From Cryomorpha ignava (GTDB lineage Bacteria > Bacteroidota > Bacteroidia > Flavobacteriales_D > Cryomorphaceae): a stretch of DNA of 64,000 nt. Below the pieces are notes generated by a model that did not search any database, was not told the origin of the DNA, and was given only the letters and a program-made list of their open reading frames with translations. The translations under genes were made by a program, and so were the position numbers. This document shows positions 50,388 through 64,000 of the stretch, in pieces. Each line of letters starts with the position of its first letter. Position 1 is the first letter of the stretch. The stretch lies in assembly GCF_010686655.1 (NCBI RefSeq), contig NZ_JAAGVY010000012.1, forward strand, positions 1-64,000. Direction: 5' to 3'.

Positions 50388-50472
50388 GCACAAACTCCGA
50401 CCCGGTTCGGTGTCGCATGTTTGTAGTAAATTATGAAACAGAAAGTCCTCTCGACCCTGTAAGCGGTCGCAC
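50388..50472 (+). repeat. 85-bp direct repeat, copy 1
   Basis: By eye, 76 of 85 bases match copy 2 at 51166-51250. Both start GCACAAACTCCGACCCGG and end GCGGTCGCAC. The copies flank the palindrome-bearing tandem array. Neither encodes a credible protein. Confidence 0.85.
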
Positions 50473-50615
50473 AAGTCACCAAGCCAATAATGTTTTGGAA
50501 CCACTTCGCTTTATTGCAACGACTTCGTGCGGTTATGGTGCAAGATGCAGATGTGAGGAGTCATTCGGAATTTCAATTGCAACGTTCCGGTTATCGAATT
50601 TGAACAAAACAAACA

Positions 50616-50980
50616 CCCTCGAGGTCGATACCCCGAGGAGCGGTAAAAAGGATTTAGATCAAAAATCATTCGTGCATTCGTGGCCTTTAAACAACCATTT
50701 AAACAATCCTTTAAACAACCGCAACCAGATTCTCCCTCGGGGTCGATACCCCGAGGAGCGGTATAAAGGATTTAGATCAAAAATCATTCGTGCATTCGTG
50801 GCCTTTAAACAACCCTTTAAACAACCGCAACCAGATTCTCCCTCGGGGTCGATACCCCGAGGAGCGGTAAAAAGAATTTAGATCAAAAATCATTCGTGCA
50901 TTCGTGGCCTTTAAACAACCATTTAAACAACCCTTTAAACAACCGCAACCAGATTCCCTCGGGGTCGATACCCCGAGGAG
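50616..50980 (+). repeat. Tandem array of about 110-bp units carrying a strong palindrome
   Basis: Units begin at 50616, 50734, 50840 and 50956 (spacing 118, 106 and 116). Each opens with a hairpin of arms CCTCGGGGT and ACCCCGAGG around CGAT; the first has one arm mismatch. The rest of the unit contains 12-base sub-repeats (AAACAACCATTT-like), whose copy number explains the unit length differences. The fourth unit is only the palindrome. The array is clearly non-coding. Confidence 0.9.
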
Positions 50981-51559: not shown

Positions 51560-51949
51560 ATGGCATTTAGAGCTGACCTTACCATTGACGGAAAAACTTA
51601 CAGACTGCTACACTGCAGCTATTCACTACACAGAGATGTAGATCCTACCGGCCGTCCTTCATCAGAAGTAAAAGGTGGAACGATTAATTTTGAAATTGAA
51701 TCTACAGAAGATACCTCACTGTGGGATTTAATGATCGCACAATTCAAAAACGTAGATGGAAACATCATTTTTAAGAAGCGCGATGAAGACGCCAAAATGA
51801 AAGAAATGACTTTCAAAACAGCGTATGTAATTGACTATGCCGAGAGCTTTGACTCAGTAGGAGGAAACCCAATGACCACAAGGTTTACCCTTTCGGCAAA
51901 AGAAATACAACTCGGTGCTGAAGTTCATGAAAATGAGTGGCCGGTGTAA
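51560..51949 (+). CDS. tssD: Type VI secretion tube protein TssD (Hcp), Bacteroidota type
   Basis: At 129 residues with no signal peptide, it matches the Hcp-like TssD of Bacteroidota. The opening FRADLTIDGKTYRLLHCSYS, the phrase RDVDPTGRPSSEVKGG, then INFEIESTEDTSLWDLMI and the late YAESFDSVGGNPMTTRFTLS are characteristic. TssD hexamers stack into the tube that a contracting sheath pushes out, and small effectors can ride inside the ring. Two small genes follow at gaps of 70 and 45 bp, suggesting cargo. No sheath, baseplate or ClpV gene is in the window. Confidence 0.92.
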   Translation: MAFRADLTIDGKTYRLLHCSYSLHRDVDPTGRPSSEVKGGTINFEIESTEDTSLWDLMIAQFKNVDGNIIFKKRDEDAKMKEMTFKTAYVIDYAESFDSVGGNPMTTRFTLSAKEIQLGAEVHENEWPV

Positions 51950-52019: not shown

Positions 52020-52334
52020 ATGATTTACTATTATCACTACACAGCTAGAAAGAATATAGATAAAATTTTTAAAAATGGTGTATTCAAATCAGATTCAAAT
52101 TATACGAAAGATGAATATTATAATGCCAGAAACGCAAGTATGTACTTAGGAATTCCTATAGAAAGTGTAGAAGCTGTTCTCAAGTTTGCGGATGACGGCT
52201 ATTTCATCAATCGAGGTTTGGTTGCTGATTCTAATCGATATTTGGGAGGTGGTTCACAATATGAGCATCGCAGAGGAAACTTAAAACCCATAGCTTTAAG
52301 AAATATTCAAAGTACTAACTGGGAAAATTTATAG
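52020..52334 (+). CDS. Small ADP-ribosyltransferase-toxin-like protein
   Basis: The 104-residue product begins YYYHYTARKNIDKIFKNGVF, the opening of the YHYT (HYD1-related) ADP-ribosyltransferase toxin folds found at C-termini of RHS proteins. DEYYNARNASMYLGIPIES corresponds to the middle of such domains, and YLGGGSQYEHRRGN to their GGGxE-like loop, here with Gln in place of the usual Glu. It lacks a delivery domain or signal peptide. Directly after tssD, it may be a stand-alone cargo effector. A non-toxic homologue or immunity function is possible. The assignment comes from remembered motifs only. Confidence 0.6.
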   Translation: MIYYYHYTARKNIDKIFKNGVFKSDSNYTKDEYYNARNASMYLGIPIESVEAVLKFADDGYFINRGLVADSNRYLGGGSQYEHRRGNLKPIALRNIQSTNWENL

Positions 52335-52379
52335 CTCTCCGCCTTTTTCTCAAGTTACTCTAACCAAACCACTACCGCA

Positions 52380-53096
52380 ATGAAATCAATAACCATAGCC
52401 AACATTAACACTCAGCAGCATCAAGGCATTCTGTCAAAATATATTACGTCAAAAGCAATCTATCTCGCTACAAAAGTTACGCTAGAAAAAGCCGGATTGT
52501 TTACCCAGGTGTTTAGTCTTGGAAATTGCGATGGATTAAAAAATATTGACATGGATATGCAAATATTCAGAGAAGCCAAGAAAACAATTACTCAGGAAGT
52601 TAAAGACGACCTGACTAGAATTTCTAAACAAGGCAGAAACTGCTTGCCTAACTATCACAAATACCTCACCATAGTATCTGTGAGAACCACCAATATTAAA
52701 AAGGAGCTGGACATAGTTCGTAAAGGAGTTATCCAATACAACCACAATCAATCTAAGTGGGCAAGTTTATTCGGTAAACTTTATTCTACAATAAAACTGT
52801 CGGCAGATGTTGGTATAGAACTTCTTTCCACTCGGGTTGGCTCGGCAGGCATGGCCATATCTTACATGTACGGATTGGCTTCTGAATTAGCAACAACCAT
52901 CGCCGAGGCTGACAAAGCAGACTTCTGGAGTTTCAGCGGCTCGCTTGCAGCTCCTCACCTTCTGGCTTGGGACCAATCTATCAAAATGGTAAAACAACCC
53001 ACTCTGGGGGTGAAAGTTATCGGTGGCGGCTTAGATGTGCTGCCTTATGTTCTAATCACCGCAGGGTTTTTAGATAATCTGGCGAAATTTGAGTAA
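52380..53096 (+). CDS. Unrecognised protein downstream of the ART-like gene
   Basis: The 238-residue product has no signal peptide. Residues 1-150 are mixed alpha/beta and charged. Residues about 145-238 contain hydrophobic, Gly-rich stretches (AGMAISYMYGLASELATTIA and GGGLDVLPYVLITAGFL) that could be membrane-inserting helices. The third position in the tssD operon suggests a second effector, an immunity protein or an effector adaptor. No family is recognised. It converges on the TPR gene with a 42-bp gap. Confidence 0.6.
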   Translation: MKSITIANINTQQHQGILSKYITSKAIYLATKVTLEKAGLFTQVFSLGNCDGLKNIDMDMQIFREAKKTITQEVKDDLTRISKQGRNCLPNYHKYLTIVSVRTTNIKKELDIVRKGVIQYNHNQSKWASLFGKLYSTIKLSADVGIELLSTRVGSAGMAISYMYGLASELATTIAEADKADFWSFSGSLAAPHLLAWDQSIKMVKQPTLGVKVIGGGLDVLPYVLITAGFLDNLAKFE

Positions 53097-53138: not shown

Positions 53139-56099
53139 TTATTTCTGCTTTTTGTATGCTTTCAGTTTCTTTTGAACGTCTTTTGACTTGAAGTAATTTT
53201 TAAATCTAGGTTCATTTTCAAATTGCTCATAATCTACTCTCAAAGAGATTGCTTTCGTCAGATTTGCTAAAGACGACTCCTTGTGATTCAAATTGAACTC
53301 TGCCATGCTCAAACCGAAGTAAGGATCTGGATTGGTAATATCAAGTTTAACGGCCTCCTCAAAATTAGATTTTGCATTGGTTAAGGTACTTTCTATCACC
53401 CCCGAGCTCATTCCCGTTTCACGTGCTTTTTTAAGATTTATTAAACCCTGAAGATAATTGTGTTCTGAGGTGCCCACAAACTCATTGTTTCGCGAAACGA
53501 CCAAGTTCAAATTTGAAGACGCCTCCTTTAATTCATTTAAGGCAATAAATGTTCTCGCTTCGTTCAATAAATCTTCTTCCGATATTGATTTTTCATATTT
53601 AAATCTCAGTTGTTGAAATTCCTTCTTTGCTTTTTTATAATCCTCAAGTTTATAGTATGCAAGCGCAGTTGAGCTAAATACTGCATAGTCATCATACCCC
53701 TTAGAAAGGGCTTCGTCAAAATACTTAAAAGATTGCTTAACTTTTTTAGGATTTGCCAAATAAGTAAGACCCATCTCATAGTATCCTTCTCCCTTTTTCG
53801 GATACACCCTTATAGCCTTTTTTAGTTGGTCTTCTGATAATTTGTACTTGCCTTCTTTTCTGAAACACTGTCCAATGCGTTTATTTACAGAATAAATCAT
53901 TTCCTTATCCTTTCTTTTCCCCAGCCTCTCAAGCGCATTCTCATAATAAATTCTGGCAGACACAATTTCTCGATCTTCGGCATAAAAGGTTTCTCCCAGT
54001 TCATAGTTTGCGTTATAATTATCCTGAATTTTGAGCAAGCTATAAAGGCTTTCTTTCGATTCTCCATAATTATGCTGCGCTCTGCTTACCAGTCCTTTTA
54101 CCAAATATCCATTCGTGCTTTTCTCTCCAGACTGGTTTATGGCCGCGTTAGCAAAAACAAGAGCCCGATCAAAATTATTTTTTTCATTGCCCATATCATA
54201 ATAACATCTGGCAGCCATGCCCCATTCAGCATAGTACTCTGGAATATGGCCGGCCATGACAAACATTTTTTCATAGCTTTTGGCAGCTTCATAATCTAGC
54301 ATTGTCGTATTTCTATTATGAATGGCCCTGCCCTGATAGAGGGTTATAAGGCTATCTAACATATTTTTCGAGGTATTATCTAATGATTTATTGGAGTAAT
54401 TCTTTACATACTTTCGGGCATCGGGATTGTTCTCTCCATTTCTTTCAAGACTTGCATAAGCAGCCAGGATTGATGCTTGCGGAAGACTATCCAAATACAG
54501 TAGATTATCTAAGTTCCGTAAGGCAAGCGTATAAGCCTGATTTCTGATTTGTATCTCGGCCAGCCTTAGAAGTGCTTTTTGATTATTTGGATCATAGCTC
54601 AGTGCCTCAAGAATATCTTTTTCAGCCTTGTCAGCTTCGTTATTTTTCAAGTACTGCCCACTGCGCATCACAAAGTAGTTTGGGTTTTTTGGTTCAAAAT
54701 AAATCAAATCGGCCAGGTAGCCCAGCACTACATCGCCGCCACCTGTGCCAGATTCAATCAACTTTAATTTAGGCAAGGCAAATTCTGATCGGCAATCTAT
54801 TGCCTTCTGAAAATAGTTAAGTCCCGGCTCGTTTTGCACCAAGGCTATTTGTCCCAGAAAATAATATTTCTTAGCCAAATCTTCGTTTTTATCTGAACTT
54901 GTGCATGTTACAGAATTCACATCGCGCAAAAGCTCATCTTTAAAATGCTGTCTGAAAAGCTCATTATCCACCTTTCTCTGACTGTCATTCCAGCTGTTTT
55001 GCGCTTCAATTATTTCAGTCTGCTGATCTTTTATTTGTCTCGAATTATCATATTTCCGACTATTGAGATCTGTCCAAAAGCCAATTGCTTTCTCGTTTTC
55101 TGCAGCTATTTTTGAAGCTTCATCATAGTTCCACGTGATGAAAGCATTTGCAGCACGCTCATAGTTTTCTTCAATTTTTTTGGTCAGATCTTCACTTAAA
55201 CTAGCCTTATATTCTAGAAGAATCGGATTGTTCCGCTGTAGTTTTTCCGCTTTAGCAAATTCTTCAGCCGACCCAACAACGTCGTGGCGCATTTTTGCCA
55301 TATCGTATTTTTCCAAAATAGAAAATAACAGAGCTTCTTTACTATCACGTTTTTCTTTGGCTCTTCGCAGCGTTTCTTGAAATGCCTCATCGCTCATCAT
55401 TTCCATATTATCCATTGAGCTACCGCTTTTTTTCCATTCAAAGTATTTCTGGCTCAATACTGCAAGCTCTTCTTTCAGCATAAAATCAGGCTGCCTTTCA
55501 GTATCTAAAAAAACGACAGAGCGCATCTTTAAATCAAACCGTTGAGTAATGGAATCGCGGGTAGCGACAAAACTTGCCAGTTTTATGAATGGCTCCGTTT
55601 TAAGCGTATCGCCTTCTACATTTACAAAGTACTGCTCATAGGCGCCATAAAGCTCATACTGATGATATCCGGTGTTCTCAGGAAAAGTGAATTTAAACGA
55701 TTCGACCGGAATCAGAATTTGATTAATAGACGGATCGACTTCGTAGTTTAAAGCATACTTACTAATAGATATCGGATTTCTATTTTGGAGATAGCTTAAT
55801 GGTCGCGAATAATCCATATCTGATATAACACGTGCATTTTCTTTTTCTTCAAAAGCGTCGTAAATGTAATTGTAAACAGTGCTTTTCGCGTCTTCAGGTA
55901 TATTGGCGTGCAGGCTATTTAAATCGCCTATTAATCTTACGGTTAATTCCTGTGCCTCACCTACAATATACGGAATCTCGTAGTCAGCAATGGTATCTTT
56001 TTTAGCATTTGGCTGAGCCAGTAGTTCAGATGAGCAAAGCTGAAAAGCAAAGAGGGCAGTACTCAGTGATATCCACAATTTATTTGAAAGACGGTTCAT
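53139..56099 (-). CDS. 986-residue exported TPR protein
   Basis: A signal peptide (LWISLSTALFAFQLCSS) opens the protein. Residues about 35-200 are beta-rich (YIVGEAQELTVRLIGDLNSL, NQILIPVESFKFTFPENTG, RFDLKMRSVVFLD) and may share an NTF2-like domain with the two preceding genes. From about residue 260 to the end are tetratricopeptide repeats (for example ALSYDPNNQKALLRLAEI, AIRVYPKKGEGYYEMGLTYL and AVKLDITNPDPYFGLSMAEF), so this is a periplasmic or surface scaffold. It is the last gene of the eight-gene operon, 39 bp after the previous one. Confidence 0.75.
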   Translation of the reverse strand: MNRLSNKLWISLSTALFAFQLCSSELLAQPNAKKDTIADYEIPYIVGEAQELTVRLIGDLNSLHANIPEDAKSTVYNYIYDAFEEKENARVISDMDYSRPLSYLQNRNPISISKYALNYEVDPSINQILIPVESFKFTFPENTGYHQYELYGAYEQYFVNVEGDTLKTEPFIKLASFVATRDSITQRFDLKMRSVVFLDTERQPDFMLKEELAVLSQKYFEWKKSGSSMDNMEMMSDEAFQETLRRAKEKRDSKEALLFSILEKYDMAKMRHDVVGSAEEFAKAEKLQRNNPILLEYKASLSEDLTKKIEENYERAANAFITWNYDEASKIAAENEKAIGFWTDLNSRKYDNSRQIKDQQTEIIEAQNSWNDSQRKVDNELFRQHFKDELLRDVNSVTCTSSDKNEDLAKKYYFLGQIALVQNEPGLNYFQKAIDCRSEFALPKLKLIESGTGGGDVVLGYLADLIYFEPKNPNYFVMRSGQYLKNNEADKAEKDILEALSYDPNNQKALLRLAEIQIRNQAYTLALRNLDNLLYLDSLPQASILAAYASLERNGENNPDARKYVKNYSNKSLDNTSKNMLDSLITLYQGRAIHNRNTTMLDYEAAKSYEKMFVMAGHIPEYYAEWGMAARCYYDMGNEKNNFDRALVFANAAINQSGEKSTNGYLVKGLVSRAQHNYGESKESLYSLLKIQDNYNANYELGETFYAEDREIVSARIYYENALERLGKRKDKEMIYSVNKRIGQCFRKEGKYKLSEDQLKKAIRVYPKKGEGYYEMGLTYLANPKKVKQSFKYFDEALSKGYDDYAVFSSTALAYYKLEDYKKAKKEFQQLRFKYEKSISEEDLLNEARTFIALNELKEASSNLNLVVSRNNEFVGTSEHNYLQGLINLKKARETGMSSGVIESTLTNAKSNFEEAVKLDITNPDPYFGLSMAEFNLNHKESSLANLTKAISLRVDYEQFENEPRFKNYFKSKDVQKKLKAYKKQK

Positions 56100-56138
56100 A
56101 TCTTGAGGTTTTATGTGATTATTCTATAGCTTTTTTTC

Positions 56139-56975
56139 CTAATTCGTATTATTGATCCCCAATACTTGCTTTTGGTAAAGTCTTTTTTCAAGAAATGAAT
56201 CCACAGCTTTTACTTCAGAGATTAACCATCCTGTGTTTAAGCTATAATCTTGCGGAACATATTCCACTTTCATAATCCACCCGGAAATTTGAAGGAAATG
56301 GTACGTTATTCCTGTCTTTATTATCACATCCGTAACAGTTTTCCCGGCAATTAAATTGAGGTATTTGTCTGTATTAGATTCTTTTTGACTATCGGACACT
56401 ACGCTCTGAAAAAGGGTTGAAGATGACAATGCTGAATAAAGCTCTGGGAAATACGTGGCGTGGCTGCTCGCCGAAATGTAAAATTTGTCATGAGATTCCA
56501 TCTTTTCAAGCGATTTTGATTTGATTCCCACAATTGACCATTCTATGGAGTAATCGCTATTCATCTGAATTTCGAGTGTAATCGTCATATCAATTGGTAT
56601 GCTATCAACAGTAACTTGTGCAGGAACAGTTGCATACCAGAGGGCATCGTAGATATCAATATGCACTGGCCTTTCTGAATCTGAAACGTCTTCCACAAAA
56701 TTTTCCCTGACCGAGTCGAGAGATAAAGTAGTTTTGCGTTTATTAAACAGCGCATTTAGCACTCTCTTCCTATCCACCTTTTCTCTTGGATAAGTAATTT
56801 GAACATATTTATAGAATTGTGACTCTTCATCAAAATTAAACCGATCAATAAACTCCTCTATATGATTTACATGAGTTTGAACTGCCTCAGTAAAATTATC
56901 TTGGGCATAAAGATTTTTCGGGATAAATCCAGATGCGATCAAAACAATACCAATATAGATAATGATCTTTTTCAT
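56139..56975 (-). CDS. Exported protein with possible NTF2-like domain
   Basis: The likely start is the ATG at 56975 (MKKIIIYIGIVLIASGFIP, a signal peptide); the longer frame starts at 56990. The 278-residue product has HVNHIEEFIDRFNFDEESQF, RKRVLNALFNKRKTTLSLDS and VQVTVD-like strands through WSIVGIKSKSL. The pattern of helix, LF, strands and WSIVGI is shared in outline with the C-terminus of the next upstream gene. The function is unknown. It is 8 bp from that gene. Confidence 0.65.
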   Translation of the reverse strand: MKKIIIYIGIVLIASGFIPKNLYAQDNFTEAVQTHVNHIEEFIDRFNFDEESQFYKYVQITYPREKVDRKRVLNALFNKRKTTLSLDSVRENFVEDVSDSERPVHIDIYDALWYATVPAQVTVDSIPIDMTITLEIQMNSDYSIEWSIVGIKSKSLEKMESHDKFYISASSHATYFPELYSALSSSTLFQSVVSDSQKESNTDKYLNLIAGKTVTDVIIKTGITYHFLQISGWIMKVEYVPQDYSLNTGWLISEVKAVDSFLEKRLYQKQVLGINNTN

Positions 56976-56997
56976 TTTGTGTAACGTCATTTTTTGG

Positions 56998-58545
56998 TTA
57001 AAAGGGTTGTGTTTGGTTCACACCTATATCTGAAAGCAGAACCTCCCAATAAACCTCAGGAGTTGAGTCGCCGGTAAAAAGTTCTACTCTTCTTATTATA
57101 ACTGTTACATTCTTTTGAGTAATATCGCTGTAGCTCAATTGCTTACCATCTAGGTCGCCAAAGCCTTTAAATTGCTGGCTAAATGTTACAGTTGCAGACC
57201 ACGTTCCATCAGGGTTGCGTTTGAAATTAGAAACCTTGTGAATTTCAGAAAACACGATTTCAACTTTCTGATATGCTCCGGTAATCATGCGTTCAAGCCG
57301 TAGAAGATAGTCACCAATTAAATAGTTTGCTATCACATCAGAATTTACAGATGACACACCTACATTTGCACGCTCATTGATAAATAAATCTTGCACGGTT
57401 GTCTCTCTTTCTCTTTGTTTTTGCTGAGCCGTAAAGTTTCTGTTCACGAGCATTACAAAGCAGTCTTGCAAGCGGTATAGCTTATCTTCAGCTTCACGCT
57501 GAATGGCTTCTTTTTCTTCGGGAGTGATCGTGTCATCGAGTTTAGGCACATTTCGGGCACCCAGGTTCCTGTTATTTTCCTCGTTGCTGGTGGTTTCTTC
57601 AATTACCGGAACGGCTACACTTATTTCAGGTTCACTTTCAGACTCTGACTCGTCAATAGCTTCTTGAACACTTTCATCCGCTAAAATGGGAGTTTCACTT
57701 TCTGGTGTTTCTTCTTTTTCGTTTTCATTTGTATTAATTACTATCGCCTCATCGCCATCACTGCTTATGTTTTTCGTATCTGCTGAATCGTCCTCATCAG
57801 CAGTTGCCTCTTGCAACTTTTTTGAGTTATCCATTTTAGCGTAGCCCTCATTAAGCATGGCAATAATATCGTCTCTGTAATAGTCCAGTTCCAGCGGAGA
57901 AACTTTTACATTTACGGTGTATGATGAACCAATCCAATTGCTTGTTTTATAGCATTCTACAACGATATTATCACTTAAAACTAAGTCAATATCTTCCTTA
58001 TTGATATTATCATTTACTAGTTTTCTTACTGGTTCATGTGCCACTATGGGGTTCGATTTAAGATAACCGGCAGTAATAATTTTTCGATCTTTGGTTAAGC
58101 AGCGATAGCTAAAATGATCTGGAAAATCCAATAAGCCCATATTAATAGAGCAGAAAGATTTTCCGCGTTTATTAAACACGAGAAATCCGGGCGTTTCCAT
58201 GTCCTGATCTAATATAAGAGTTATACTCTTTGTAGAAAGATTAATTTGAGTTGTATCTCCCTGAGAATCGACCGATTTTAGGTAGACCGCCTTGCCCGAA
58301 ATAATTGGAGCACTTGTGGTAGCGATCGGGTTAGCATATTCTGAAGAATATACAATTTGCCTTTCGGACTGTGTACAATCTAATACTGTAAAATCACTGT
58401 ACGCAGCAGTGCTAATTTGTTCTGGATTGGCGTAAATATTGTCATTGGACTCGTTTCTTAATTCGAATCTGTTAGTTACTGTATTAAAAAAAGGCATAAA
58501 CCCGATCAACAGGCAGAAAATTTTCGTATTCAATGGGTTTAACAT
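56998..58545 (-). CDS. Exported protein with acidic linker and NTF2-like C-terminus
   Basis: The 515-residue product has an N-terminal hydrophobic export segment (FCLLIGFMPFFNTV). Residues about 30-250 are beta-rich. An acidic linker follows (about 255-335, such as DESESESEPEISVAVPVIEE). The C-terminal domain (about 365-515) includes QDCFVMLVNRNFTAQQKQ, QDLFINERANVGVSSV and SATVTFSQQFKGFGD. I see no known family. It is placed between the two small envelope proteins and the second NTF2-like gene in a compact operon. Confidence 0.65.
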   Translation of the reverse strand: MLNPLNTKIFCLLIGFMPFFNTVTNRFELRNESNDNIYANPEQISTAAYSDFTVLDCTQSERQIVYSSEYANPIATTSAPIISGKAVYLKSVDSQGDTTQINLSTKSITLILDQDMETPGFLVFNKRGKSFCSINMGLLDFPDHFSYRCLTKDRKIITAGYLKSNPIVAHEPVRKLVNDNINKEDIDLVLSDNIVVECYKTSNWIGSSYTVNVKVSPLELDYYRDDIIAMLNEGYAKMDNSKKLQEATADEDDSADTKNISSDGDEAIVINTNENEKEETPESETPILADESVQEAIDESESESEPEISVAVPVIEETTSNEENNRNLGARNVPKLDDTITPEEKEAIQREAEDKLYRLQDCFVMLVNRNFTAQQKQRERETTVQDLFINERANVGVSSVNSDVIANYLIGDYLLRLERMITGAYQKVEIVFSEIHKVSNFKRNPDGTWSATVTFSQQFKGFGDLDGKQLSYSDITQKNVTVIIRRVELFTGDSTPEVYWEVLLSDIGVNQTQPF

Positions 58546-58573
58546 GGCTATAGTATTAAATTAAGCACAATTA

Positions 58574-59200
58574 TTATTTTATTTTTTTAGATGCCCGTTC
58601 AATTCCTTTCTGAGCTTCACTAAATTCTAAATCTGTAGAAGAATATTTTAGACTTCTTTCAAAAAGCACTTTTGAACTCATCCATTCTTTTTTTCTAATC
58701 TCTTCAGTTGCCATTTCAATACAAAGCGAATAAAGCCACTGCTTCATTTCATTAGATTTTACCGAACCCAATAAGCTGAGGTATTCTTTATAGGTGTTCT
58801 CCAGACTATTTATCTCCTTATTTTGGTAGTATTTATATGCCTCCGACAATAAATTCTGACTCAAAATATTTTTTACATTTAATATATACTTCCCCTCTTC
58901 GCCATATTTGCTAATGTATTTTCGGCAGTTCTCATCTGTATTTGTTTCATCAGTAATCTCGGTATAGAGCAACTCTTCTTCAGCCCTTCTAATCTGCTCC
59001 AAAACGTAATTGTTTGAAGGCTGATTTTCAATAACCACCTGGTAATTTATCAGTGCCTCTTCATATTTCCCATCGTGAAACAAACTATTTGCCTGAATTA
59101 AATGACCATAGGTTTCATTCTCGGGCTGCGCCACGGCATACGAATAAGAGCACAAGAGATTGCCCAGTATTAGAATTAGAAAATGAAACTTTTTTATCAT
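58574..59200 (-). CDS. Exported TPR-like small protein
   Basis: The 208-residue product has a signal peptide (FHFLILILGNLLCSYSYAVA) and helical pairs reminiscent of TPRs: YGHLIQANSLFHDGKYEEAL, NYVLEQIRRAEEELL and SSKVLFERSLKYSSTDLEF. A periplasmic adaptor or scaffold role fits. It is 28 bp upstream of the preceding gene in transcription order. Confidence 0.65.
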   Translation of the reverse strand: MIKKFHFLILILGNLLCSYSYAVAQPENETYGHLIQANSLFHDGKYEEALINYQVVIENQPSNNYVLEQIRRAEEELLYTEITDETNTDENCRKYISKYGEEGKYILNVKNILSQNLLSEAYKYYQNKEINSLENTYKEYLSLLGSVKSNEMKQWLYSLCIEMATEEIRKKEWMSSKVLFERSLKYSSTDLEFSEAQKGIERASKKIK

Positions 59201-59216
59201 GTTATGCTGCTATTTT

Positions 59217-59702
59217 TTATTTTTTGCAATCCCTGTGGGCACGTTGTAAATCTTTAAAATAAGCTCTGCTAAAAGCAGATTCACGTTCTTTAAAAAACGA
59301 CAAAACGGCGTCGTAAGCCATTTGATCAGTAATTCGATTATATAATGTCGAATCACAAGATTCCTTATAGCTTTCTAAATTCCTTTGTAATTCAATTTTA
59401 ATATCGCTGTCGCTAAAACCTTTATATGATGATTTACTCACTTTATCTTTGAGCTTTTCTACTCTTTCTGACTTTAGTTTCTCTACTTCCTTTTTGGTTT
59501 CCGAATTTTGAATGACATCTTCTGTTAAGGTATCTTTCTCAATGTTTTCTATTGAAGTGATAACGCTCTCGTTCTTAACATCCTTCAAAGACTCATCCTT
59601 TCCACTTGAATCCTCAAGTCCACAACCCCAGCCGAATACGAGGAAAATCAACATACAACAGGTTGCGAATAGGTTTCGTATAAATATGTAATTCGCGCTC
59701 AT
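59217..59702 (-). CDS. Small charged lipoprotein
   Basis: The 161-residue product has a lipoprotein signal (LIFLVFGWGCG), a charged helical middle (KKEVEKLKSERVEKLKDKV) and a C-terminal helix region (AVLSFFKERESAFSRAYF). Subtype-iii T6SS loci contain a small lipoprotein, TssQ, but I cannot identify this one as such. It overlaps the permease gene by 4 bp. Confidence 0.65.
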   Translation of the reverse strand: MSANYIFIRNLFATCCMLIFLVFGWGCGLEDSSGKDESLKDVKNESVITSIENIEKDTLTEDVIQNSETKKEVEKLKSERVEKLKDKVSKSSYKGFSDSDIKIELQRNLESYKESCDSTLYNRITDQMAYDAVLSFFKERESAFSRAYFKDLQRAHRDCKK

Positions 59703-61306
59703 GATCTATTGTAAATTAAGTCGCCGGGCGGGCATGAAAGGAAAGATTTTAAGAGGTTTCTAAACAACACAAAAGAAACACCGCCGAAAACGGCAATGGC
59801 CAACCAGAGCCATATATTGGTAAAAACTTCCATATAGCCTAAAAATTCAGGCAAGTGGAGTGCATACATAGTCAAGCGAATCGCAAGAATTATTCCCGTC
59901 AAAAAAACCAACGAAAGCAAAGTTGCACTCGCAATAAGTCTGAAAATTATTCTCAAATATCCTTTGTAAAGAAATTCTTTGGGCATTCCAAAAGCCAGAA
60001 AAGTTCCCAGATTCATACTTATTTTCTCAAGGTGACTTTTCATCAGGTTGAAAAGATAAATCAGAATCGCGAATCCGGCAAAAAACACTAAACTCAAAAT
60101 AAGAAAAATGGACATAAAAGATACCACTCCAAAATTCTCTTTTGCTTCTACTTGACTGAGATCCAACTCCATTTTATACTTCTCCAGAACCACATCCTGA
60201 AAAGGAGAAATAGCTGAAAGATCTTCTATTTTAAAAGAGAGAATATCAAACATGTTTCCGGTAGAGTAATCCTTACTCTCAGGGTCGCCATATACCATAG
60301 ATTCGTGAGGAATAAGCAGAGAATGGTCATACATCAGTGCAGCATTGTACGGGTATAAATCTTCTGCCAATTTTGTACTAATTCTTCGCCGGGCACTTAA
60401 ATCTAAGTTCTCGGAAAGGTCATAAAAGGTCATCACCTTGTTTTGTGATAGAAGGTTCAAATCAGGCTTCGCTGCGCGCTCGTCTCCATAAGTCAGTCCG
60501 AATTCACTTTTTAAGAGTGCTGATATCTCTGTTTTTACGCGAGCTTCATTATCATTTACTTTTACGTACACTGAGAGTTCATTACTTTCGAAAGAAGAAG
60601 AGCCAGAGACATTGCTTTCGCCATAATTATTTAGCGTAACTACAAGTCTGTTTTCGGCAAAAACCTGCGATCTGTTCGGCAAAGATTTTACAACTGCAAG
60701 AACGGTAAGCGGTAGGTTGTCGCCATCCTGAATCATTATTTTGTTAGTCTTTAAATCGGCAATATCACATTCTAAATCTTTAACCAGATTGATACTTATT
60801 ATCACACCATCCTGTAGTTTTTCCGGGGTCAGGTTTTTGACATCTCCGAAATCGTAGATTAAATTATCTTCCTCACAAATGCTGTTTATCAAATCTTTAT
60901 CTTCCCAAAAGTTAAAACTTTGGACAAATGCCAATATCGTTCCTCCGCCTTCGCTTCTATAAAACTTCCAGAGAGCCCTATAAGACCCGGTACTTTTTGA
61001 AAATGAGAATTCATGGCTCGCCGCATTCTCATCAAAAAATTTCTTTATTTCGGCATAGTTATGTCTATAGCTATGATTTGAAACCGGAATATTAAACCAT
61101 TTAATAAATGGGTCGTTCATTTTATAATTCAGGTAGTCTAATCCGGCCTTGCCCAAAACCACAGAAAACAACGAAAAGAAAAGGAGTACCGTTAGCATGA
61201 CAAGAATTCCACTCTTCTTACCTTTTACAGAATTGTATTCTCGCCTATGGAAAATCCTTTCCTTCGGATGTTTAAACTTAAAAAATAAGGAGCGCTCAGG
61301 TTTCAT
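59699..61306 (-). CDS. MacB/FtsX-like ABC permease
   Basis: The 535-residue inner-membrane protein has one N-terminal transmembrane helix (about 34-54, GILVMLTVLLFFSLFSVVLG), a large periplasmic domain of about 330 residues, and three C-terminal helices (about 393-418, 447-472, 490-515). This is the topology of MacB, LolCE and FtsX permeases, which use the ATPase to drive work in the periplasm rather than transport through a channel. The periplasmic domain is larger than in FtsX. It overlaps the ATPase gene by 4 bp. Confidence 0.8.
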   Translation of the reverse strand: MKPERSLFFKFKHPKERIFHRREYNSVKGKKSGILVMLTVLLFFSLFSVVLGKAGLDYLNYKMNDPFIKWFNIPVSNHSYRHNYAEIKKFFDENAASHEFSFSKSTGSYRALWKFYRSEGGGTILAFVQSFNFWEDKDLINSICEEDNLIYDFGDVKNLTPEKLQDGVIISINLVKDLECDIADLKTNKIMIQDGDNLPLTVLAVVKSLPNRSQVFAENRLVVTLNNYGESNVSGSSSFESNELSVYVKVNDNEARVKTEISALLKSEFGLTYGDERAAKPDLNLLSQNKVMTFYDLSENLDLSARRRISTKLAEDLYPYNAALMYDHSLLIPHESMVYGDPESKDYSTGNMFDILSFKIEDLSAISPFQDVVLEKYKMELDLSQVEAKENFGVVSFMSIFLILSLVFFAGFAILIYLFNLMKSHLEKISMNLGTFLAFGMPKEFLYKGYLRIIFRLIASATLLSLVFLTGIILAIRLTMYALHLPEFLGYMEVFTNIWLWLAIAVFGGVSFVLFRNLLKSFLSCPPGDLIYNRS

Positions 61307-62085
61307 GATTTAACTCCTTCCTTAAAAGTGAATGCTTCTTTTTTCAGAACGCGCGTAGTAGCGTATCCATTTTTCGTTGGAAGAATCTCAATAATCATAT
61401 TCCCATATTCATGAGCTAACTCAGAGTGATGGGTAACAATCACGGCCACTTTGTTTTTCTCTTTTATATGATCACTGAGAATTCCGAAAAGCGCTTTTGA
61501 GTTTTCGATATCCAGATTTCCAGTTGGTTCATCTGCCAGTAGAATCGAAAATTGGCCTACAAGGGCTCTCACAAATGCTACTCGCTGTTTCTGTCCACCC
61601 GATATTTCCTGCGGCGACCTATCCAGAATATCATCGGGTAAACTCATCTTTTTTAATAGGAGTTTTACCTCTGACTCAATTTTATTTTGCTCGTCGGGTG
61701 TGAAATTAGCCGCCATCAAAATATTCTCAAGAACAGAGAAATTTGACATCAGATTGGTCGTTTGAAAAATAAAACTAAAGAGTTTTTCTCTGATCGATGT
61801 AAGCTTATTTTCATCTCTCTTCCAAAGATATTCGGGATTGAAATTTTCATTTAAAATAGAAAATTCAGAACTGGAATCATCAAAATTTTTAAATGTATTA
61901 CTCATCAAACCTATGCTTTCTAGCAGCGTACTTTTTCCAATCCCCGACGGCCCTATAATAAAGACCATTCCCGCTCGCGGAATGAGTAGGTCAGGAATAT
62001 TCAATATGACTTTGCTGTCGTAGCCAAATTGAATATTTTTAAAAAAAAATGCAGCATCATTTTGCATAAAAAGTGGATTAACCAA
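61303..62085 (-). CDS. MacB/LolD-type ABC ATPase
   Basis: The 260-residue ATPase has Walker A FIIGPSGIGKSTLLESIGLM, a Q-loop near FSFIFQTTNLMSNFSV, signature ISGGQKQRVAFVRALVG, Walker B ILLADEPTGNLD and H-loop VIVTHHSELAHE. DEPTGNLD is the pattern of LolD, MacB and FtsE. It overlaps the permease on one side by 4 bp and the VWA gene on the other by 8 bp, so it belongs to this complex. Confidence 0.88.
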   Translation of the reverse strand: MVNPLFMQNDAAFFFKNIQFGYDSKVILNIPDLLIPRAGMVFIIGPSGIGKSTLLESIGLMSNTFKNFDDSSSEFSILNENFNPEYLWKRDENKLTSIREKLFSFIFQTTNLMSNFSVLENILMAANFTPDEQNKIESEVKLLLKKMSLPDDILDRSPQEISGGQKQRVAFVRALVGQFSILLADEPTGNLDIENSKALFGILSDHIKEKNKVAVIVTHHSELAHEYGNMIIEILPTKNGYATTRVLKKEAFTFKEGVKS

Positions 62086-64000
62086 ATACGTATTCTAATG
62101 GTACCCAGTAAAATTTTGAATTCGTTCCTTCAATTTGGTAATAAACATCACCATTGTAGATATTTTGTAAGTTGGTATACGCGGTTTTAAAATACTTCAT
62201 TAACTGATCAATTTGCACATCACTTAGTTTCTTTTTACTCATGATATCACCTACAGTCAATCCGCCAAATTGCTCCAAATCATTTGGCAGCATTAGGTTC
62301 ATGTTTTCAATTCCCAGCAGGCGCTTTCTCAATTCTTCGATCGTTATATTTTCATATTTCTTATCGCCTCCCAGTACTGTTTGTGCCAGGCTGCTCCAAT
62401 ACTTCCCCAGACTTTCCTGCACATTGGCCTGCGTTTCATTTCTGAATTCGCCAGTGAGTTTTCTAAGATCTGCGAGGCGAGACGAAAGCTTATCTTCATG
62501 CATAAATAGCACGTATTTAAACAAGGGATACTTCAGTTTATCAGATTTATAATACGTATTTGATTTGATAAAAAGCTGAACCTTCTCTGCCGCACACCAC
62601 TCTCTGAAATCATTTAAAAACTCCTCATTGTTTACATCATTTTTAATCAATTCATCGATAATTAACGAAAGCACCGGAATTTTAAAATCACTTGCCCGAT
62701 CATTTAACGCCGACTCATCTTCTACAATCTCTTTTAAATTTGAAAGGAATTCTTTTGTCTTCAATTCGCAAGAATCTAATTCCAAAGCCATGTAATTGCT
62801 TACCAGATTTTCATTGTAATCATCCAGAAAATAGGATTTTATTTGGAAAGCGCTTTTATTCATTCTGGCTACCTTAGCGCCATTTATTGTCGTTTTAGAA
62901 AGCACCGGGGTTTCTGGTTGAGTGTTGCTGATAACGAACTCAATACCGAAGTATTTATTGGCCTGTGAAGTGGCAAGTTCAGGAAGAATTTCATCGCATT
63001 GATTTTCATAAAATAGCTTTCTGGTTCCAGCACTAACCTCTTTTGAATAGCCAATGAAATTGATATAATTCAAATCGATTTCATTATTTTTCAAAATGTC
63101 TCCCAAATCAATTGGGCTAAGCATTGTTTCGGGTTTTTGTGATTTAAACCAAGGGTCAACCGATGAATTGTCAGGCGCATTACCGATATGCACAATGACA
63201 TTAGATTGGTTTGGAGTGAGCATTAGAATAGCCTTTTTCATGGCATAGTAAACGGCTTCGCCCTCTGTTTTAAAACCTGCCTCGCCAATTGGGTACTCAC
63301 CGAGATTTTTGGCAAGTTCTTTGGCATTGGTACTTAAATCATAAATTCGGCAAAATTCAGATTCCGGATTCGCATCTATTGTATTGTCCGGAAATTCATT
63401 TTTGTAAAGAACGGCTCCGTATTTAGTGGTATTAATTCCACTGGCGACATTGCTTTCATAAGCTTTATTCAAAAAATCAATCACAACATCCAAATACCGT
63501 TTGGTGCCATCGCTTCCATCGAGCAAAAAAACCACATTCTTAAATTTCATGTTTTCGGCCAGCTCCTTGCTTTTCTTGCTAATTTGGGTGTAAACCGCAT
63601 CATCAAACCCTTCCACAACTCCACTGTTTCCCAAATTTGTTTTACCGGTAACTGCTGTAAATATTTTCGAATTGTCGGGATATCTCACGCCATTAAACAC
63701 CGGATATCTAAAAATTTCACCGTCCATTCTGGGATGTAACTCATAGTTACCCAAAGCGGGATCTCTAAGTGGTCCACCTACCAATGCGCTTCCACGTGCT
63801 CCGGTTGTACGGTATTTTTCAACCTGGTCTACTCCACCAAAATCACTCGTAAAAACAGTTGCAATTATATCTTTTTGAGCTCTTTCTTCGAGGGCAGGTT
63901 TATCAAAATTTGGTTCCAGGCATAGAGCCGTCTTCCAAATTTCAGTTCTTCCTTCATCTACCCACCCCAGTAGTGGAGAATTATCGTTGAGATCGTAGTA
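62078..64000 (-). CDS. TssR-like VWA-domain protein (5' end beyond window)
   Basis: The frame is open through the window edge: upstream of the TTG at 63784 it continues with residues such as GWVDEGRTEIWKTALCLEPN and VFTSDFGGVDQVEKYRTTG. It is thus much longer than the 568 residues from 63784. FKNVVFLLDGSDGTKRYLDV gives the metal-site DxS of a von Willebrand A fold; VIVHIGNAPDNSS is a later VWA strand and loop. The C-terminal part is helical. An SH3-like upstream segment, a VWA domain and linkage to TssD recall TssR, a periplasmic protein of subtype-iii T6SS. The TssR assignment is an inference. Confidence 0.6.
   Translation of the reverse strand, partial: YYDLNDNSPLLGWVDEGRTEIWKTALCLEPNFDKPALEERAQKDIIATVFTSDFGGVDQVEKYRTTGARGSALVGGPLRDPALGNYELHPRMDGEIFRYPVFNGVRYPDNSKIFTAVTGKTNLGNSGVVEGFDDAVYTQISKKSKELAENMKFKNVVFLLDGSDGTKRYLDVVIDFLNKAYESNVASGINTTKYGAVLYKNEFPDNTIDANPESEFCRIYDLSTNAKELAKNLGEYPIGEAGFKTEGEAVYYAMKKAILMLTPNQSNVIVHIGNAPDNSSVDPWFKSQKPETMLSPIDLGDILKNNEIDLNYINFIGYSKEVSAGTRKLFYENQCDEILPELATSQANKYFGIEFVISNTQPETPVLSKTTINGAKVARMNKSAFQIKSYFLDDYNENLVSNYMALELDSCELKTKEFLSNLKEIVEDESALNDRASDFKIPVLSLIIDELIKNDVNNEEFLNDFREWCAAEKVQLFIKSNTYYKSDKLKYPLFKYVLFMHEDKLSSRLADLRKLTGEFRNETQANVQESLGKYWSSLAQTVLGGDKKYENITIEELRKRLLGIENMNLMLPNDLEQFGGLTVGDIMSKKKLSDVQIDQLMKYFKTAYTNLQNIYNGDVYYQIEGTNSKFYWVPLEYVFG

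Follow-up and report, generated by a model that had tools for sequence, protein, structure and literature searches.

The closest described counterpart of the locus studied here is the T6SSiii of Bacteroides fragilis with its membrane complex TssNQOPR, in which TssR bears a lipoprotein signal and is essential for the T6SS (PMC10781749). TssJLM of T6SSi anchors the baseplate across the envelope in an analogous manner but has no homologous parts (PMC10781749). How the membrane complex of the Bacteroidota T6SS arose is unsettled; according to PMC10781749, an ancestral system was sought, and homologues of the complex, searched for in 1253 complete genomes, are stated to be undetected outside T6SS loci. 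FtsEX-EnvC, MacAB-TolC, LolCDE and YbbAP-TesA form a second set of reference systems, each combining a four-TM (transmembrane) permease, with a periplasmic domain after TM1, and a LolD/FtsE-like ATPase. FtsEX and MacB pass ATP-driven motion on to periplasmic partners, as described in PMC7668044 and PMC5985334. Neither a T6SS with such an ABC module, in agreement with the preliminary description of this DNA, nor, in Bacteroidota, any pairing of TssR with a module of FtsX or ABC type is described in the literature searched, which for the most part lay outside subscription journals and preprints.

The window analysed here comprises 64,000 nucleotides of Cryomorpha ignava, taken from the start of a contig of 118 kb. 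At its end, the preliminary description had placed a new system of eight tightly packed genes with 4- to 8-bp overlaps. ORF calling recovered all eight minus-strand genes and confirmed coordinates and overlaps (Table 1): the 161-aa and 535-aa genes share 4 bp, as do the 535-aa and 260-aa genes, the 260-aa and VWA genes overlap by 8 bp, and the remaining gaps measure 7-39 bp. Upstream of the VWA gene and in the same direction lie genes for proteins of 477, 1069 and 402 aa and for TssO (175 aa), separated by gaps of 3 bp or less or overlapping by 4 bp. The operon thus described starts with TssO at contig position 71005 and comprises 12 genes with no real gaps, in the order TssO, 402-aa TM protein, 1069-aa Ig protein with a T9SS sorting tail, 477-aa outer-membrane (OM) barrel, TssR, ATPase, permease, lipoprotein, TPR-like protein, 515-aa protein, 283-aa protein and, at its end, the 986-aa TPR protein. 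The eight genes are therefore the downstream part of a 12-gene T6SSiii membrane-complex operon; they stand as genes, not as a separate set. Chance clustering or a gene-calling artefact is ruled out by the consecutive triads found in other genomes (76/76, see below).

Table 1. Genes of the eight-gene block and the nearby tube gene, with positions in the window
Feature	Position	Strand	Evidence or remark
TssR homologue, VWA protein	62078..64000, cut by window end	(-)	full gene 849 aa, to contig position 64627
ABC ATPase, 260 aa	61303..62085	(-)	ABC_tran 6.3e-21 and motifs in translation
Type VII ABC permease (predicted fold), 535 aa	59699..61306	(-)	hydropathy, AlphaFold2, Foldseek, VIA-align
Small probable lipoprotein, 161 aa	59217..59702	(-)	imperfect lipobox GWGC in sequence
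Exported TPR-like protein, 208 aa	58574..59200	(-)	TPR_2 1.4e-3 (Pfam) and signal peptide in sequence
515-aa protein, no fold assigned	56998..58545	(-)	without Pfam match; phmmer homologues in G280, G285
Exported 283-aa protein, no fold assigned	56139..56990	(-)	without Pfam match over cut-off
Exported TPR scaffold, 986 aa	53139..56099	(-)	TPR families (Pfam); closes the operon
TssD (Hcp), T6SS tube protein	51560..51949	(+)	Pfam TssD 5.7e-48

The T6SS locus runs on beyond the window. The T6SS genes for which the preliminary description had pointed past position 64000 are present there: in addition to TssO, the opposite strand beyond the operon encodes PAAR, a metallopeptidase-like protein, DUF4123, a LytTR regulator, ClpV, TssB, TssC and then VgrG, followed in the same run by TssE, TssF, TssG, TssN and TssK. 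All core components of tail and baseplate (TssB, C, D, E, F, G, H, I, K) are present, with Pfam matches to TssC (1.5e-219), TssB (2.7e-8), TssD (5.7e-48), gp25, TssF, TssG, VgrG and ClpV; TssK has no Pfam match and is matched by phmmer in canonical loci at 4e-43. TssN (Pfam 1.7e-30) lies between TssG and TssK at contig positions 85995-86915. TssO adjoins the TssR cluster, its expected place; its Pfam value of 9.3e-5 is under the curated cut-off, and that of its orthologue in locus L123 (1.1e-6) is just above it. TssC, TssN, TssF, TssG, gp25, VgrG, TssB, TssO and TssD all fall within ~37 kb. No TssQ was recognised in the locus. The candidate for TssP is the 402-aa TM protein, which hhalign relates to the TssP of loci with a fused ABC gene at 77% (E 2e-5) and to canonical TssP at about 10%, so that its likeness to TssP is weak. 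Judged by these matches, the locus is a complete T6SSiii save for an unrecognised TssQ and a doubtful TssP.

Directly after tssD, a 104-aa and a 238-aa ORF (window 52020-53096) form a possible TssD-linked effector/immunity pair; the former has a weak match, below cut-off, to DarT-like ADP-ribosyltransferases (3.7e-4). Genes for PAAR, the metallopeptidase-like protein, a 201-aa lipoprotein-like protein and the DUF4123 adaptor (contig 71393-75335) make up an effector cassette that is partly kept in L123, G280 and canonical loci. Beside the T6SS locus, contig positions 89499-89894 encode a small YkuD-like L,D-transpeptidase protein (1.6e-3, below cut-off), a possible effector. An intergenic ORF at window 50417-50881 translates into two near-copies of ~35 residues and is perhaps a short DNA repeat.

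The VWA protein had been described as resembling TssR, and this likeness was borne out. Its part in the window matches Pfam TssR_VWA above the cut-off (5.9e-6) and TssR_C weakly (1.8e-3); at full length there is also a weak match to the TssR N-terminal domain (0.011). Relatives match better: G431 gives 4e-17 for TssR_VWA and 1e-11 for the N domain, and in L117 three TssR domains exceed the Pfam cut-off. In nine of ten loci, canonical T6SSiii TssR is matched by a profile of the ABC-linked TssR family at 1e-55 to 1e-99, and in the tenth at 3e-26. Against solved structures, the TssR profile matched only generic VWA domains. These profile matches establish the VWA protein as a genuine homologue of TssR. 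It has a signal peptide and no lipobox. The lipobox is also missing from nearly all ABC-linked TssR and from several canonical ones, so it is not a universal trait of TssR. An unbroken copy of the metal-binding motif of VWA domains, D-x-S/T-x-S, is present in 22 of the 36 TssR of T6SS-free genomes and in only one of the 25 of T6SS genomes, a split strongly tied to phylogeny; the TssR of the window reads D-G-S-D-G, a broken motif.

In the ATPase, the Walker A (GPSGIGKST), signature (SGGQKQR) and Walker B (LLADEP) motifs are intact, and NCBIfam places it as LolD/FtsE/MacB-like, with every match below the equivalog cut-off. The permease has a weak FtsX match in Pfam. Its hydropathy profile shows four TM helices (33-51, 400-418, 458-476 and 497-515), leaving a periplasmic domain of ~350 residues between TM1 and TM2. 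As a single sequence it matched no solved structure; its profile weakly matched YtrF and FtsX. An AlphaFold2 model from 66 sequences (pLDDT 83.4, pTM 0.75) retrieved LolE (1.6e-7) and MacB (1.7e-7) with Foldseek, and VIA-align Z-scores were 16.3 for LolE, 15.6 for MacB and 14.9 for FtsX. The predicted structure places the pump among the type VII ABC pairs, with a MacB/LolE-like fold.

Compared with the T6SSiii of B. fragilis, the locus agrees in the homology of TssR, in TssN and TssO, in the full set of baseplate and tail genes, and in that TssR is encoded near TssO and a TM/PKD-like protein. It differs in that its operon adds the ABC ATPase and permease, the OM barrel, the T9SS-sorted Ig protein, the lipoprotein and the TPR proteins, and in that TssP is weakly recognisable, TssQ is unrecognised and TssR, here without lipobox, comes from another branch of the family. 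Compared with the type VII ABC systems, the partner is the VWA protein TssR, and mechanotransmission is likened by analogy. The conserved set of the module lacks the MacA and TolC of MacAB-TolC, the second permease of LolCDE (there is one per locus) and the TesA-like hydrolase of YbbAP-TesA; unlike FtsEX, it has the large periplasmic domain in place of a short loop and no conserved hydrolase or EnvC-like partner.

Among the partner genes, the one for the OM barrel encodes homologous proteins in T6SS-linked loci and in those free of T6SS (hhalign 97-99%). In the relatives L067, L071, G285, G335 and L123, the permease gene is followed by one for a small protein about as long as the probable lipoprotein of the window, in many cases with a lipobox. 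The downstream genes are more narrowly distributed: homologues of the 515-aa protein (phmmer 2e-143, 5e-143) and of the 283-aa protein (2e-100, 3e-100) occur only in the same-family T6SS genomes G280 and G285, and the 986-aa TPR protein is conserved in G285 (8e-175). The 515- and 283-aa proteins had been thought to be NTF2-like, for which Pfam, NCBIfam and profile comparison gave no sequence support; an NTF2-like domain common to these two and the TPR proteins was likewise rejected, there being no significant profile match among them or to the OM-barrel proteins. Such a domain appears instead in the neighbouring OM-barrel family, where the model of the L123 copy (pLDDT 70) has an N-terminal NTF2/ketosteroid-isomerase-like domain followed by an 8-stranded barrel. 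At least one Ser/Thr kinase, PP2C phosphatase or FHA protein was found in 41 of 80 loci, at least two in 28. A role in anti-phage defence was also considered and dismissed: PADLOC has no match for TssR, the permease or the 515-, 283- and 986-aa proteins, and its matches to the ATPase, kinase and PP2C are generic.

A scan of 84,980 genomes with a 7-sequence permease alignment yielded 97 relatives, 80 of which were taken for loci. In each of the 76 loci with at least 3.4 kb of contig upstream, the genes for TssR, ATPase and permease follow one another directly or are fused, the other four of the 80 being contig edges; ATPase and permease are fused in four of the loci. The possibility, raised in the preliminary description, that the ABC pair is scattered independently in relatives is thus answered, as it never occurs apart from TssR in the testable loci. 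Reverse sampling from Pfam TssR hits found an ABC gene next to eight of nine non-canonical TssR genes (G000, G039, G064, G158, G803, G911, G648 and G823; without it, G874). No ABC pair adjoins TssR in any of the ten canonical T6SSiii loci (L147-L151, L191-L194, L200), and since canonical loci, e.g. that of B. fragilis (PMC10781749), work without one, it is not needed by T6SSiii in general.

By TssC profile, 10 of 50 module-bearing genomes have TssC and 40 lack it; all hits are 1.5e-99 or better, so that the split is clean. The profile found none in Portibacter marinus and P. lacus (G064, G158), both rated 100% complete, nor in G039, G431, G648 and G823; many of the other T6SS-free carriers are metagenome bins, in which a single absence of TssC counts for little. 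With four fifths of the carriers lacking TssC, the basic job of the module is not the T6SS. Among 299 genomes of the order, the permease occurs in 4 of 5 genera with T6SS and in 2 of 60 others (Fisher p 1e-4, counting genera, of which related ones are not independent). The triad is also present in the T6SS genomes G280 and G285, and L123 repeats the operon order of the window (TssO, ~400-aa TM protein, Ig/large secreted protein, OM barrel, TssR, ATPase, permease, lipoprotein) with a highly diverged TssR. In L117, TssR and a fused ATPase-permease directly precede ClpV-TssB-TssC-TssD-VgrG-TssE-TssF. Each module-bearing T6SS genome has one TssR (fragment-split in three; one has an extra weak VWA match), 6-29 kb from TssC on one contig in eight of them. 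If TssR is needed as in B. fragilis (PMC10781749), this ABC-linked TssR must therefore serve these T6SSs. In summary of these distributions, the TssR of the window belongs to a branch encoded with a type VII ABC pair, usually together with an OM beta-barrel protein; the module is mostly found in T6SS-free genomes and, in some lineages including that of the window, is built into a T6SS operon as the sole TssR.

The trees of TssR are unrooted, quick and long-branched, and gain and loss of the ABC pair are not separable on them. Canonical TssR forms one clade, joined with the TssR of fused-ABC loci (both 100*), whereas the TssR of the window clusters with those of G280, L123 and L144, within the set that is linked to the ABC pair and mostly free of T6SS. 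A single clade of all T6SS-linked TssR, with the window and canonical types constrained together, was rejected at p-AU 5e-43, a test limited by the long branches and the quick tree. TssC of the window, G280 and L123 falls among canonical T6SSiii TssC. Related T6SS cores thus carry TssR from two branches, which points to exchange or old paralogy. Fused-ABC loci also encode, beside TssR, a ~300-aa TM protein with PKD-like domains that is a homologue of TssP; the canonical TssP profile matches it in L197 (4e-31), L198 (2e-30) and L196 (7e-18). Genome G648 (L198), of 99% completeness, has this set of fused-ABC TssR and TssP and no TssC. The finding of TssR, and in one branch TssP, in T6SS-free genomes contradicts the published statement on homologues (PMC10781749).

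We propose that the operon of the window is a T6SSiii membrane-complex operon with a TssR-ABC module, in which the ABC pair drives TssR and the envelope complex by mechanotransmission; we give this reading a probability of about 0.6. The permease dimer, powered by ATP, would work in the manner of FtsEX, MacB and LolCDE, its motion moving or priming periplasmic TssR and, through TssR, the TssP-like protein and the OM barrel. As an outcome, the envelope might be opened, or the T6SS docking complex assembled or reset. In T6SS-free genomes the same lever would act on another envelope client, often under control of Ser/Thr kinases, PP2C and FHA proteins. Mechanotransmission onto TssR is favoured because TssR is always the partner and the conserved set includes neither an adaptor or duct nor a second permease or hydrolase. 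Ordinary MacAB efflux was discarded on the same grounds, as neither the operon nor the conserved neighbour families include a MacA-type adaptor or a TolC-type duct.

Alternatively, TssR and the ABC pair might be an independent trans-envelope machine that is merely sited in a T6SS locus and has another purpose there, for example to display the T9SS-sorted Ig protein at the surface or to attach it. Most carriers indeed have no T6SS, and T6SS-free loci share the OM barrel, the Ig protein with T9SS sorting tail and the lipoprotein with the window; yet here the module is interleaved with tssO and the weakly TssP-like gene in one operon and holds the sole TssR of T6SS genomes, a protein essential in B. 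fragilis (PMC10781749), so we regard such a separate role in the window as unlikely. Rather improbable is a dedicated Lol-like extractor sorting T6SS lipoproteins (the small lipoprotein or TssR) to the outer membrane: there is one permease instead of a LolC/LolE pair, TssR of the window and nearly all its ABC-linked relatives have no lipobox and no LolA or LolB gene was seen in the operon, even though LolE is the closest predicted fold by Z-score and a small probable lipoprotein gene directly follows the permease. A still smaller chance is given to an FtsEX-like switch of peptidoglycan hydrolysis that clears the path of the T6SS, with TssR as an EnvC-like adaptor. The modelled permease matches the FtsX fold (Z 14.9) and FtsEX does mechanotransmit through a periplasmic partner (PMC7668044, PMC11491553), but the conserved set includes no hydrolase or coiled-coil activator, and the predicted periplasmic domain is MacB/LolE-sized, not FtsX-sized.

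In the favoured reading, that of an ABC pair driving TssR within the T6SS anchor, some T6SSs would have an ATP-driven inner-membrane motor at the anchor, as the operon suggests. The preliminary description had left a T6SS part and an independent machine as alternatives; because the OM barrel-TssR-ATPase-permease core is mostly found in T6SS-free genomes, both hold, in different genomes. The particular tasks that it suggested (remodelling the cell wall, placing TssR, extracting lipoproteins) gained no support. The T6SS-free set of TssR and pump may be related to the system from which part of the T6SSiii anchor was derived. A bolder proposal, which we put forward tentatively and at somewhat less than even odds, is that TssR, the ABC pair and the OM barrel constitute an ATP-driven trans-envelope system, independent of T6SS and not described before, that is common across Bacteroidota, is often controlled by Ser/Thr kinases and was the source of the T6SSiii TssR and TssP, and that the T6SS of the window keeps the motor attached. 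The presence of TssR (and TssP in one branch) in T6SS-free genomes, including those of the cultured P. marinus and P. lacus, makes the origin of the membrane complex testable and indicates that Bacteroidota of the gut and the environment have an envelope system yet to be characterised.

Some further loci deserve mention. A very divergent T6SS lineage was seen in Saprospiraceae and relatives (L078, L142, G335 (L156) and the genomes of L077 and L079), with TssC ~26% identical on a long starred branch; in two of its loci the TssR-ABC module, together with a PP2C gene, lies next to TssK-TssN-TssG-TssF. L195 (G874), from a T6SS genome, encodes TssR, TssP, a possible OM barrel and a large secreted protein with no ABC, a layout intermediate between canonical and ABC-linked. 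Tubulin_2-family proteins (1.4e-28, 5.1e-43) occur near T6SS-free TssR-ABC modules in G431 (L037), L106 and L139. In L087 (11557-18414), where the module holds three TssR-like ORFs, SrfB and SrfC-like (Virul_Fac) proteins are encoded directly downstream.
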